Shown here: positions 19,892 to 24,758 of the stretch, piece after piece
Position numbering within the stretch: position 1 is the first letter of the stretch
How the letters are laid out: each line of letters begins with the position of its first letter
DNA from: Thermoplasmata archaeon
Lineage (GTDB): Archaea; Thermoplasmatota; Thermoplasmata; Lutacidiplasmatales; UBA184
Direction: 5' to 3'
DNA: 41,553 bases
Assembly (NCBI GenBank): GCA_022749895.1
Contig: JAKIWS010000013.1
Coordinates: 1 to 41,553 of the forward strand
Made by a program: the position numbers and the translations under genes
The notes under the pieces: generated by a model
Told to the model about the DNA's origin: nothing
Seen by the model: the letters and a program-made list of their open reading frames with translations, nothing else
Databases searched by the model: none

Positions 19892-20911
19892 TCAGACCGG
19901 AACTGGAGGCCGTTCGGTGATCCGCCAGGGCTTGAGTCCGCCGACGACGGCGGTCATCCGGACGACGTCCCGCCGCTCCGGATGCATCCGCGTGCCGAAG
20001 AGCAGTCGTCGCGGTTCGCCGAGCCGGCCGCGGAGGCTCCGCAGCACGCGGTCGAGGGTCCGCAGGGTGAGGTTCGACCCCCCGTCGAGGTGGACGAGCG
20101 CGCTCGGCGCCGCCGCGAGCTCGAAATCGAGCATCGTCTCGGCGAGCGCCTGCTGGACCAAGTGTTCGGGCTCGGAGATGTGGTGCTCGCTCCGGAGCAG
20201 CGTTGACACCCCGGAATCGCGCAGGTGCGCCTTCAAGCTCGCAAGGTCGACGTTGAGCTGGGACGGGTTCTCGACCATGTCGACCAGGCTCTCGACGAGG
20301 CTGTGGAGGTATGTGCTCCGCAGGTGGAAGATCCGCGGGAGCGGCAGCGTCTCGAACCGGCGGAGCTTCTCGTTGGCGAGGATGAGGACGAGGCCGCCGA
20401 GGCTCTGCAGCTCGGCGAGGGTCTGAACGACGTTCTCCCGCCGGTCGGGGTTCATCTCGAGCTCGACCTGGAACGGGAGGAACGCGACCGGAACGGCGAC
20501 GGTCTCGGTCGGCCGCAACATCGCCGTGAAGAACGGCAGCAGCGCGCTCCCGGTGCCCCCGCCGAGACCGGCGAGGAGGAAGACGATCTCGAACTTCGAG
20601 AGACGCCGAGCGAGTTCTTCCCCGCTCTCGGTGGCGGCCTCGAGAACCCCCGAGCGGTTCCCGCCGCTCCCCGCCCCACGGAAGCGCCGTTGACCGAGGA
20701 GGATCCTCTCCTCGGTGCGGACCTGGTTGAGGTGGCGGGCGTCGGTGTTGACGGCGAAGGTGCGCACGCCGGGGAGGCCCAATCCGACGAGGTCGTGCAC
20801 GGCATCGCTGCCGGCCCCTCCGAGACCGACGACGGCGAACGGGGAAGGGCGGGCCACGTCGAGGAGCGCATCGTCGGGGGAGGGCACCATGTCGCCGTCC
20901 GGTCGGTTCAC
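19892..20911 (-). CDS. Divergent FtsZ-family protein
   Basis: This 339-residue protein has the tubulin/FtsZ GTPase layout: VVGLGGAGSDAV (T1), FAVNTDARHL (T2/T3), LLAGLGGGTGSALLP (T4, residues 114-125), LGGLVLILANEKL (T6) and LNVDLASLKAHL (T7). Two features depart from canonical FtsZ. The T4 signature ends GGGTGSA instead of GGGTGTG or GGGTGSG. The T7 loop, normally NxDxxD, has Asn220 and Asp222 but Ser225 in place of the catalytic Asp. It may polymerise with reduced GTP hydrolysis or act as a regulator of another FtsZ. The GTG start overlaps the stop of the RHH regulator (GTGA). An in-frame ATG at 20890 is the alternative. No long C-terminal tail follows the GTPase-associated domain. Confidence 0.82.
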   Translation of the reverse strand: MNRPDGDMVPSPDDALLDVARPSPFAVVGLGGAGSDAVHDLVGLGLPGVRTFAVNTDARHLNQVRTEERILLGQRRFRGAGSGGNRSGVLEAATESGEELARRLSKFEIVFLLAGLGGGTGSALLPFFTAMLRPTETVAVPVAFLPFQVELEMNPDRRENVVQTLAELQSLGGLVLILANEKLRRFETLPLPRIFHLRSTYLHSLVESLVDMVENPSQLNVDLASLKAHLRDSGVSTLLRSEHHISEPEHLVQQALAETMLDFELAAAPSALVHLDGGSNLTLRTLDRVLRSLRGRLGEPRRLLFGTRMHPERRDVVRMTAVVGGLKPWRITERPPVPV

Positions 20912-21267
20912 GGGGGCGGCGAGCCGTCCGCGGCTACGGAGACGGATTCACGGCGGCCCCGGGCGGTGCCGAGGTTCTCGATGCGGATCCGGATGTACTC
21001 GCGAACAGCGGAGCGTACCGCGTCGTCCACGCTGACCGAGCCGCCTTCGCGGACGAACTCCTCGAGCTGGCGATTGTCTTGACGTGAGAGGTCCACCACC
21101 ACCTTGCGGATGTTCGGTGGAGGCAGATTCATGTCGACGAACCGCTCGAGCGCTTCGCGGATCGCGTCGGAGATCGTGGGCGTGCCCTTGGATTGCTGGA
21201 TCAACTTCAGCTTCTCGAGGAGATCCTGCGGGATCCGGACGGTCACCCGCTCCGACGTGTCGCCCAT
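20908..21267 (-). CDS. Tandem ribbon-helix-helix DNA-binding regulator
   Basis: This 119-residue protein has two RHH units. The first is residues 7-44 (RVTVRIPQDLLEKLKLIQ, then GTPTISDAIREALERFV). The second is 54-95 (RKVVVDLSRQDNRQLEEFV, then GSVSVDDAVRSAVREYI). A disordered tail ends the protein. One chain could thus supply the pseudo-dimeric DNA-binding fold. It overlaps and precedes an FtsZ-family gene, an arrangement like the haloarchaeal cdrS-ftsZ2 operon, where a small RHH factor controls cell division genes. Its leader holds a perfect inverted repeat (21272-21302), so autoregulation is likely. The ATG at 21267 is well placed. Confidence 0.85.
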   Translation of the reverse strand: MGDTSERVTVRIPQDLLEKLKLIQQSKGTPTISDAIREALERFVDMNLPPPNIRKVVVDLSRQDNRQLEEFVREGGSVSVDDAVRSAVREYIRIRIENLGTARGRRESVSVAADGSPPP

Positions 21268-21271
21268 CGCG

Positions 21272-21302
21272 TGTCAGACAAGCTCCGTTGTTTTGTCTGA
21301 CA
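21272..21302. promoter_or_regulatory. Probable operator of the RHH-FtsZ operon
   Basis: TGTCAGACAA (21272-21281) and TTGTCTGACA (21293-21302) form a perfect 10-bp inverted repeat with an 11-nt spacer. The next bases (TTGACAG, 21304-21310) contain a further partial half-site. A TATA-like TATTAT (complement of 21327-21332) predicts transcription starting near 21303, so the repeat spans the start site and the leader up to 5 nt from the ATG. The outer spacing of two helical turns suits two bound RHH units. Confidence 0.7.
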
Positions 21303-21335
21303 TTTGACAGATGCTTGGGCGGGCTCATAATACTT

Positions 21336-22781: not shown

Positions 22782-24758
22782 CTACGGGTGGTGCCCCGCG
22801 TCGGGTGGAAGGGTCGAGCCCGCGTGACGGTCCTCGGATTCCCACCTCGTGACGAGCTCCTGGAAACGCGGGTCCGCTCGGAACTTCGCGAGCGCGGGAG
22901 TAGCCCACATGCTGGCCCGGACCGAGAACGGGACTCTTCCCGCCCCGTCGAAGAGAATGCCGTAGGCCCGGTCGAGGTCGCCCAGAAGGGCGTAGGTCAT
23001 CGCGAACCACTTCGTCGGCAGCTGCTCGCCGGGCGGGAGAGAGTTCAAACGCTCGATCGACCGCTCGGTCTCCGCACGCTCACCGAGCACCGCATGGCCG
23101 TTCGCAGTGACCCACAGCTTTGAGCCGGCATCCGCCGGACCGGCTCCGTAGGACCGCAACACCTCGGAGGCGAGCGCGCCATGCCCGGTGAGCGCCAGGA
23201 GGGAGACCCGATTGAAGGTCACCGCATCGTGCGATGGCGAGATCTCGAGGGCCCGGTCCCATTTTCGCAGCGCTTCGTCGGGCCGCCCGGCCGCCCAAGC
23301 CGACAGCCCGGATGAGTTGAGGACCGCGGGTGATAGGGGATCCGACTCCTCCGCCCGCGCGATCTCGAGGGCGGCTTCTTCCACGCGCCCGAGACACAGG
23401 AGCGTCAGGCACAGCCAGTGATGGCCCGTGGAGTACCCCGGATTGAGCTCGATCGCCGCTCGGAGCTCCCGCTCGGACTCCCGGAACTCGCCCGCCTGGG
23501 CCAAGACCGCCCCGAGGGAAGCGTGCGCCTCGGCCAACCGGGGGTCGAGCTCGAGGGCCCGGAGGGCGGCCGCCCGTCCTTTGGGCACCGCCTCCACCTC
23601 CGCGAGGGCCGACCGGTCGAGCAGGATGGAATAGCAGTCGGCGACGCCGGAATGGGCGAGGGAGAACTCCGGATCGACCTCGACCGCCTCTTGGAATCGC
23701 CGCATCGCCTCGCGGACGTCGGGAACCGTACGACGGTTCCACAACGAACGACCCCGGAGGTAGAGCGTGTATGCCTCCACGTTCGGATGCGTGCGTCGCC
23801 GTGTCGAGACCGGGGCACGGAGTCTCAGGTCGAGGGCCTGCGCCACGTTCTCCGCAATATCGGATTGGATCGCGAAGATGTCCTCGAGCTCCCGGTCGAA
23901 CCGCTCGGCCCACAAGTGCTCCTCCGAGGCCGCGTCGATGAGCTGGACGGTGATCCGGATCCGGTTCCCCGACTTGCGGACGCTCCCCTCGAGCACGTTG
24001 CCGACCCGGAGCTCCGCGCCGATCTCCCGGACCCCTTTGGCCGCGCTCTTGTAGCGCATCACGGAGGTCCGGGCGATCACGCGGAGATTGGGGATGTGCG
24101 ATAGCTCCGTGATGATCTCGTCCGTCAGCCCGTCGGCGAAGTAGTCGTCGTTCGCGTTCGGGCTCATGTTGGCGAACGGGAGGACCGCGAGGCGGGGTAC
24201 GGGCTCGGGAGTCGCGGGGTCCGCCGCGACCCGCGCGCTGGCGGCTGGGAACACGACCCGGTACACGGTGATCGGCACCCGAACGTTCTTGAGCTCGGGG
24301 CCGACGAGCGCCTCGAACGCCACGTCGAGCTTGTTCTGTACCTGGTCGAAGACCTGGGCTGAGATACAGACGCCCCCCGGGACCGAGAGCGGCTCGATCC
24401 TCGAGGCGATGTTGACCGCGTCGCCGAGGACGTCCCCGTCGGACTCGATGACGTCCCCGAGGTGCACCCCGATGCGGAGTTGGAGCCGATCGGGCTCGGA
24501 GGTCGCGGGGTCGCTCCGCAACGAGCGCTGAATCTCGATCGCGCAGGTCGTGGCCTCGAGGGCGCTCTCGAACTCCACGAGAAATGAGTCGCCGATCGTT
24601 TTCACCTCCCGGCCACGGAATCGGGCGAAGAACGGGCGCAGAATCTCGTGGTGGCGTTCGAGGAGCCGCATCGCCTCGCTTTCGTTCGCCTGAGCAAGAG
24701 CCGTGAACCCCACGATATCCGTGAACATGATCGCAGCGAGTCGGCGAGGGCCCGGCAC
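22782..24758 (-). CDS. Class III adenylate/guanylate cyclase with TolB-like and TPR domains
   Basis: This is a 658-residue multidomain protein. Residues 1-170 are a class III cyclase: metal-binding Asp14 (FTDIVGFTAL) and Asp57 (KTIGDSFL), transition-state residues Asn116 and Arg120 (GDAVNIASR), and base-selecting Lys53 and Asp113, which point to ATP rather than GTP. About 185-310 is a TolB-like/FlgO domain (LAVLPFANMSPNANDDYFAD, ADGLTDEIITELS). From about 320 onward there are tetratricopeptide repeats (AEAHASLGAVLAQAGEFRES, DPLSPAVLNSSGLSAWAAGR). This layout is common in bacteria and rare in archaea, so acquisition by transfer is likely. A GTG at 24758 lies 24 nt after the methyltransferase stop. 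A TTTAA overlapping that stop may act as its own TATA box. Confidence 0.88.
   Translation of the reverse strand: MPGPRRLAAIMFTDIVGFTALAQANESEAMRLLERHHEILRPFFARFRGREVKTIGDSFLVEFESALEATTCAIEIQRSLRSDPATSEPDRLQLRIGVHLGDVIESDGDVLGDAVNIASRIEPLSVPGGVCISAQVFDQVQNKLDVAFEALVGPELKNVRVPITVYRVVFPAASARVAADPATPEPVPRLAVLPFANMSPNANDDYFADGLTDEIITELSHIPNLRVIARTSVMRYKSAAKGVREIGAELRVGNVLEGSVRKSGNRIRITVQLIDAASEEHLWAERFDRELEDIFAIQSDIAENVAQALDLRLRAPVSTRRRTHPNVEAYTLYLRGRSLWNRRTVPDVREAMRRFQEAVEVDPEFSLAHSGVADCYSILLDRSALAEVEAVPKGRAAALRALELDPRLAEAHASLGAVLAQAGEFRESERELRAAIELNPGYSTGHHWLCLTLLCLGRVEEAALEIARAEESDPLSPAVLNSSGLSAWAAGRPDEALRKWDRALEISPSHDAVTFNRVSLLALTGHGALASEVLRSYGAGPADAGSKLWVTANGHAVLGERAETERSIERLNSLPPGEQLPTKWFAMTYALLGDLDRAYGILFDGAGRVPFSVRASMWATPALAKFRADPRFQELVTRWESEDRHAGSTLPPDAGHHP

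Follow-up and report, generated by a model that had tools for sequence, protein, structure and literature searches.

A probable tandem-RHH version of the cdrS-ftsZ2 type operon in Thermoplasmatota, with a putative double-box operator at its start

A gene for a protein with two RHH units in one chain lies directly before an FtsZ-family gene in an archaeon of the Lutacidiplasmatales, and the region just upstream of its start codon carries two GTC-N-GAC boxes whose position and spacing are conserved in the genus. We read this locus as a tandem-RHH version of the cdrS-ftsZ2 type operon, in which the RHH protein would bind its own double box, repress rhh-ftsZ and probably also bind a box pair before a second ftsZ gene, ftsZ1b, the FtsZ partner being slow to hydrolyse GTP or unable to do so; taken as a whole, we consider this reading fairly probable. 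The window, meaning the whole stretch of 41,553 nucleotides that was analysed, comes from a genome of 2.02 Mb that is 83% complete and has four FtsZ-family genes. Its nearest named kin are "Thermoplasmata archaeon" MAGs, including "Candidatus Lutacidiplasma silvani"; this puts it in Lutacidiplasmatales, an order of Thermoplasmatota (PMC9287336). Both genes are on the minus strand, the RHH gene at 20908-21267 followed by the FtsZ-family ORF at 19892-20911. The layout that defines the cdrS-ftsZ2 type, in which an FtsZ-family gene is immediately preceded by an RHH gene on the same strand, is present in the window and in most of the class genomes read. Elsewhere in the window, 22782-24758 encodes a fusion of TPR repeats with a nucleotide cyclase domain, a combination that may be unusual for an archaeon. 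The features of the locus, with the basis of each in brackets, are:

21327..21332, minus strand: TATA-like element TATTAT, ~31 bp before box 1 (sequence; T/A-rich peak in relatives)
21272..21302, no strand assigned: 31-bp inverted repeat holding both boxes (sequence)
21295..21301, minus strand: box 1 (GTCAGAC), position -34 relative to the RHH ATG and close to where transcription is predicted to start (pattern and alignment of sites)
21273..21279, minus strand: box 2, GTCTGAC, at -12 from the RHH ATG (pattern and alignment of sites)
20908..21267, minus strand: tandem RHH regulator gene, 119 aa (ORF, Pfam, profile match, homologues)
21127..21255, minus strand: RHH unit 1, residues 5-47, with strand residues R7, T9, R11 (Pfam RHH_1; R-T-R invariant in 44/44)
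20974..21114, minus strand: RHH unit 2, residues 52-98, with strand residues K55, V57, D59 (profile match to 5ceg)
20908..20911, minus strand: GTGA overlap of the two genes, probably incidental (sequence; comparison with relatives)
19892..20890, minus strand: FtsZ-family gene, likely ATG start at 20890 (Pfam/NCBIfam; start by relatives)
20237..20254, minus strand: T7 loop, NVDLAS, with Ser in place of the catalytic Asp (30/30 genus homologues have Ser, Thr or Gly there)

The original prediction of an inverted repeat in the regulator's leader was borne out exactly: perfect 10-bp arms lie at 21272-21281 (TGTCAGACAA) and 21293-21302 (TTGTCTGACA), 4 bp from the RHH ATG (21267). Each arm holds GTC-N-GAC, which is itself palindromic, and the 31-bp site that had been proposed as a single operator, though a genuine repeat, appears better read as two GTC-N-GAC palindromes 22 bp, or two helical turns, apart than as one palindrome. 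An exact match to the double box is found only once in the genome from which the window comes; a backwards control pattern is absent from that genome and was seen in one of 61 genomes. All 30 loci of the genus have the double box, with its 22-bp spacing, at one position, starting at -32 to -34. We also examined 80 named loci, chosen by their RHH protein and not by the site, so that the site itself was not selected for: the two boxes are 22 bp apart in every one of them, starting at -32 to -34 in 78 and at -54 in two, and three carry a third box 22 bp further upstream.

Among the 74 distinct sites the six box letters GTC/GAC are invariant, and 12 of the 16 combinations of bases are seen at the two box centres. 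These sites also have a T/A-rich peak, 23-30 bp ahead of box 1, that marks the TATA element. Given the TATA-to-start distance usual in archaea, this peak would put the transcription start close to box 1. The repeat had been placed between the predicted transcription start and the start codon; box 1 falls at that predicted start. Directly before box 1, in most of the 74 sites, is a further conserved stretch (21302-21313), which has the consensus ATATGTCAATC and reads ATCTGTCAAAT in the window; it may serve as an initiator or as a half-site.

Beyond the genus the boxes are kept in more varied form. A perfect box is found no more than 130 bp before the RHH start in 19 of 20 class genomes outside the genus; among random windows drawn from these loci, 3.6% contain one. 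Nine of the 20 sampled (G040, G041, G045, G046, G049, G052, G053, G054 and G057) have a perfect pair at 21-22 bp, that of G053 being taken from an exact-pattern search and the other eight from the scan of 130 bp upstream. The 22-bp pair has one mismatch in G037, G039, G050 and G058, other spacings are seen in G042 (33 bp) and G059 (12 bp), and a second batch of genomes yielded 22-bp pairs in G223, G139 and G229. Other classes of Thermoplasmatota have a single-RHH gene (75-78 aa) before ftsZ; six loci of this kind were read, and one or more perfect boxes are present at each. The RHH-ftsZ pair is kept without a box in some class members (G127, G178, G114 and G038). No box was found in three of the five f19 genomes read (G102, G149 and G106), in which the RHH gene is beside a pheT-like gene and has no adjacent ftsZ, nor in the 125 bp before the RHH gene of one Salinibaculum plasmid copy, our look at the haloarchaea. 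The outcome that would have refuted the original idea, a lack of conservation in close relatives, was not seen: these relatives keep both the gene pair and the putative operator, and the class as a whole keeps them more loosely. Of the two origins suggested for the module, ancient or convergent, the former fits better, because the RHH protein is CdrS-like and the same box stands at the single-RHH operons of other classes. G060 has a single RHH match, a weak one; in this genome the region between two convergent genes (L118:2657-2786) contains three boxes in steps of 11 bp as well as a pair 22 bp apart.

The RHH ORF matches Pfam RHH_1 with E 1e-10 (41.6 bits; gathering score 20.5), and homologues of the tandem protein are present in 52 of 61 related genomes. 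The claim of two RHH units in one chain holds up on two separate matches: unit 1 is matched directly by Pfam, and unit 2 (profile positions 52-95) independently matches the solved CopG/Arc/MetJ-family antidote 5ceg (E 1.3e-4) in a search with a profile built from 20 homologues, the same search matching unit 1 to NikR (E 6e-4). The unit-1 strand residues R7, T9 and R11 are unchanged in all 44 sequences compared; at the matching places unit 2 has mostly K/R, T/V and E/D. The best NCBIfam match is to the haloarchaeal CdrS model NF058555 (E 2e-7), at 30.8 bits and so below its cut-off of 100; a weak match to aCcr1 (E 5e-7) is also below that model's cut-off. AlphaFold models of the protein (pTM 0.39 and 0.35) contain four helices, arranged as two helix pairs, with both strands unpaired, and these unpaired strands, in models of low confidence, hint that dimers may form between chains. 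A pseudo-dimer within a single chain was rejected on the same feature, seen in both models, low as their confidence is. A fold search returned no match at E <0.001.

The second gene belongs to the FtsZ family by its matches to Pfam Tubulin (E 3e-23; GTPase domain 83.7 bits versus 33) and FtsZ_C (E 6e-11), and its GGGTGS signature is intact; against the equivalog TIGR00065 it scores 173 bits, below the curated cut-off of 295.2. The two genes had been described as overlapping in GTGA. The letters are present, but a role for them as the working ftsZ start is not supported: counted from the first base of the RHH stop codon, 20 of 30 relatives have an ATG in the FtsZ frame 15-25 nt further on, and an in-frame ATG stands at a like offset in the window (20890, 20 nt from that base). 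Translation of ftsZ therefore probably does not begin at the GTG at 20911, and the overlap is probably incidental.

One of the two catalytic Asp residues expected of the T7 loop (NxDxxD) in an active GTPase, the second, is missing from the window's protein and from its 29 relatives in the genus, all 30 having Ser, Thr or Gly in its place, and T1 Asn is replaced by Asp or Glu in the same 30; the second Asp is kept in those class partners that align there. T7 mutants of FtsZ in general hydrolyse GTP poorly, and by analogy with them the window's protein would do so too; it is probably a partner of the canonical FtsZs that hydrolyses GTP slowly or not at all. In the tree the class partners stand outside the FtsZ1 group with support of 100, and they share T5/T6 motifs with the FtsZ proteins adjoining single-RHH genes. 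The genus FtsZ clade is on a long branch, and the tree does not prefer its placement with FtsZ2 over that with FtsZ1 (AU p 0.52); the label FtsZ2 for these proteins rests on gene order.

The two canonical FtsZ proteins of the genome, encoded by ftsZ1b and ftsZ1a, group with M. jannaschii FtsZ1. Before the ATG of ftsZ1b (contig C63), 12 of 12 genus genomes have the 26-bp block GAGCGTANGACGCTCGTCNGACAAAC, which is invariant except for the two box centres; its boxes, GTA-N-GAC-N4-GTC-N-GAC, are downstream of the TATA element. The ftsZ1a gene (C30), with a box in none of 11 genus genomes, acts as a built-in negative control, the ftsZ1b boxes being judged against one paralogue and neighbouring sequence. 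Outside the genus, five exact double boxes are at places other than an RHH gene; two of these precede ftsZ genes (G051, G057), and in G058 a one-turn box pair is found before an ftsZ gene, upstream of a TATA-like stretch. The pattern GTA-N-GAC-N4-GTC-N-GAC also occurs in many genus genomes between a TATA-like stretch and a conserved ORF of ~50 aa that has no Pfam match (L299, at C74:43593 of the same genome as the window; L300-L310), and the promoter of this ORF is a possible third target of the RHH regulator.

Contig C20 of that genome carries a second RHH gene (L004:774-1274), a weak match to the CdrS model (E 9e-4), directly before another, more divergent FtsZ-family gene (L004:1165-2238). 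The closest relative, G025, has a 22-kb contig (C50; L121, L122) that carries both a viral-type family B DNA polymerase and 28 GTCNGAC boxes. Eight box pairs on it are less than 60 bp apart, every one of them spaced by 11, 22 or 33 bp; at least one pair is inside a likely coding stretch, and two distant relatives of the polymerase in a viral collection showed no such pairs. This contig may come from a virus or plasmid that makes use of its host's operator. Six of the double-box matches in the viral collection were examined and judged unrelated, being mostly repeats inside phage genes.

From this material we infer how the operon would work. The RHH protein most likely binds the two GTC-N-GAC boxes of its own operon, which lie in the stretch from the transcription start to the start codon; two RHH dimers, placed on one helix face over the start region, would then block initiation of rhh-ftsZ, and through this negative autoregulation the operon would hold its own level. 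In the genus the same protein probably binds the one-turn pair before ftsZ1b, by which two FtsZ-family proteins would be set together. Each box would probably be read by unit 1 as a dimer across two chains, as a single-RHH CdrS would read it, and unit 2 would probably join the dimers, accounting for the 11/22-bp spacing; with AlphaFold pTM of only 0.35-0.39, this dimer arrangement is a guess. Repression is favoured because the boxes lie downstream of the TATA element. The sign, repression or activation, is nevertheless the weakest step of the mechanism, and it could differ, since the sites of H. volcanii CdrS are mostly upstream of promoters and ftsZ1 seems to be activated (PMC8406309).

It is accordingly conceivable, though we think it unlikely, that the RHH protein binds the boxes and activates, or that it represses some targets and activates others, in the manner of CdrS on H. 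volcanii ftsZ1: knock-down of CdrS lowers ftsZ1, which has a CdrS site upstream of its promoter (PMC8406309), and the G058 pair too is upstream of the TATA-like stretch of its ftsZ gene. Against activation, the rhh-ftsZ and ftsZ1b promoters of the genus both have their boxes downstream of the TATA element, which is the place of archaeal repressors. We rate as improbable an arrangement in which some other transcription factor binds the boxes and the RHH protein acts elsewhere; in its favour is the second RHH gene beside another FtsZ-family gene in this genome, but the sole exact site in the genome is at the promoter of the RHH gene itself, the boxes go with RHH-ftsZ operons of both the tandem and the single kind throughout the phylum, and short phased palindromes suit RHH proteins.

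Two further explanations were considered. The leader can fold to a 10-bp stem (-12.9 kcal/mol, z -2.5), as would be expected if the inverted repeat acted as an RNA hairpin in the mRNA, controlling translation or stability. We rate this as very improbable. The centre bases pair in 52 of the 74 sites, where 43 would be expected from the margins; the flanking AA/TT pairs decay, whereas each box keeps its GTC/GAC unchanged. It is this invariance of GTC/GAC beside a varying centre base that favours a DNA operator over a hairpin. Boxes are moreover found at 11, 12, 21, 22 and 33 bp, with the orientation-free form also before other ftsZ genes; with transcription predicted to start at the first arm, the stem may be only partly transcribed; and no Rfam family fits the leader. 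To a chance palindrome or a plain core-promoter element, which the overlap of the repeat with the start region might suggest, we give next to no weight, in view of one exact copy per genome, a fixed place in 80 of 80 loci and invariant half-sites.

With binding of the boxes by the RHH protein as the preferred reading, their conservation points to an old division switch. We go beyond this only tentatively, to a history in which GTC-N-GAC was the ancestral division operator of Thermoplasmatota, older than the tandem RHH protein; duplication would have produced a reader of phased pairs that couples two ftsZ genes, one of them now hydrolysis-dead, and an extrachromosomal element in a close relative would use the same operator. 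Such a history would show a division regulator going from one to two DNA-binding units with its site kept, and an FtsZ losing a catalytic residue inside an RHH-ftsZ operon. What is known of transcriptional control of archaeal division comes mostly from haloarchaea. The locus described here offers a putative operator that can be followed letter by letter through a class, with few targets named. The presence of an RHH gene beside ftsZ2 throughout the archaea is already known (PMC7439475, PMC9871819); new here are the tandem form of the RHH protein, its putative operator and the proposed connection with a second ftsZ gene. No paper on the tandem form or on this operator was found in a literature search that had most subscription journals outside its reach.

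Several known systems share single traits with this one. ParR-type RHH proteins bind 11-bp iterons, which like the boxes here are short and a whole number of helical turns apart, though at plasmid partition sites and not at ftsZ promoters. TraY of the F plasmid, a tandem RHH protein of bacterial conjugation, has two RHH units per chain like the window's protein but, unlike it, has no known link to FtsZ. The aCcr1 family of Sulfolobales, to which the NCBIfam match is weak (E 5e-7), likewise consists of RHH cell-cycle regulators; aCcr1 has a single RHH and is tied to Cdv-type division. Among archaeal ftsZ2 neighbourhoods, the accessible part of PMC9871819 gives an RHH_1 gene as the usual neighbour, as in the window, and the tandem form and the operator are not described in that part. 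The nearest parallel in gene order is the cdrS-ftsZ2 locus, published together with its spread through the archaea (PMC7439475), in which haloarchaea likewise have the RHH gene directly before the FtsZ-family gene (PMC7439475, PMC8406309). CdrS has one RHH unit, of 55 aa in Halobacterium, whereas the window's protein has two per chain. H. volcanii CdrS has a ChIP motif (PMC8406309), and its own operon is absent from its ChIP list, whereas the site described here is at the start of the regulator's own operon. The haloarchaeal regulator does, by ChIP, reach a second ftsZ gene, ftsZ1 (PMC7439475, PMC8406309), and in this the regulator proposed here would resemble it.
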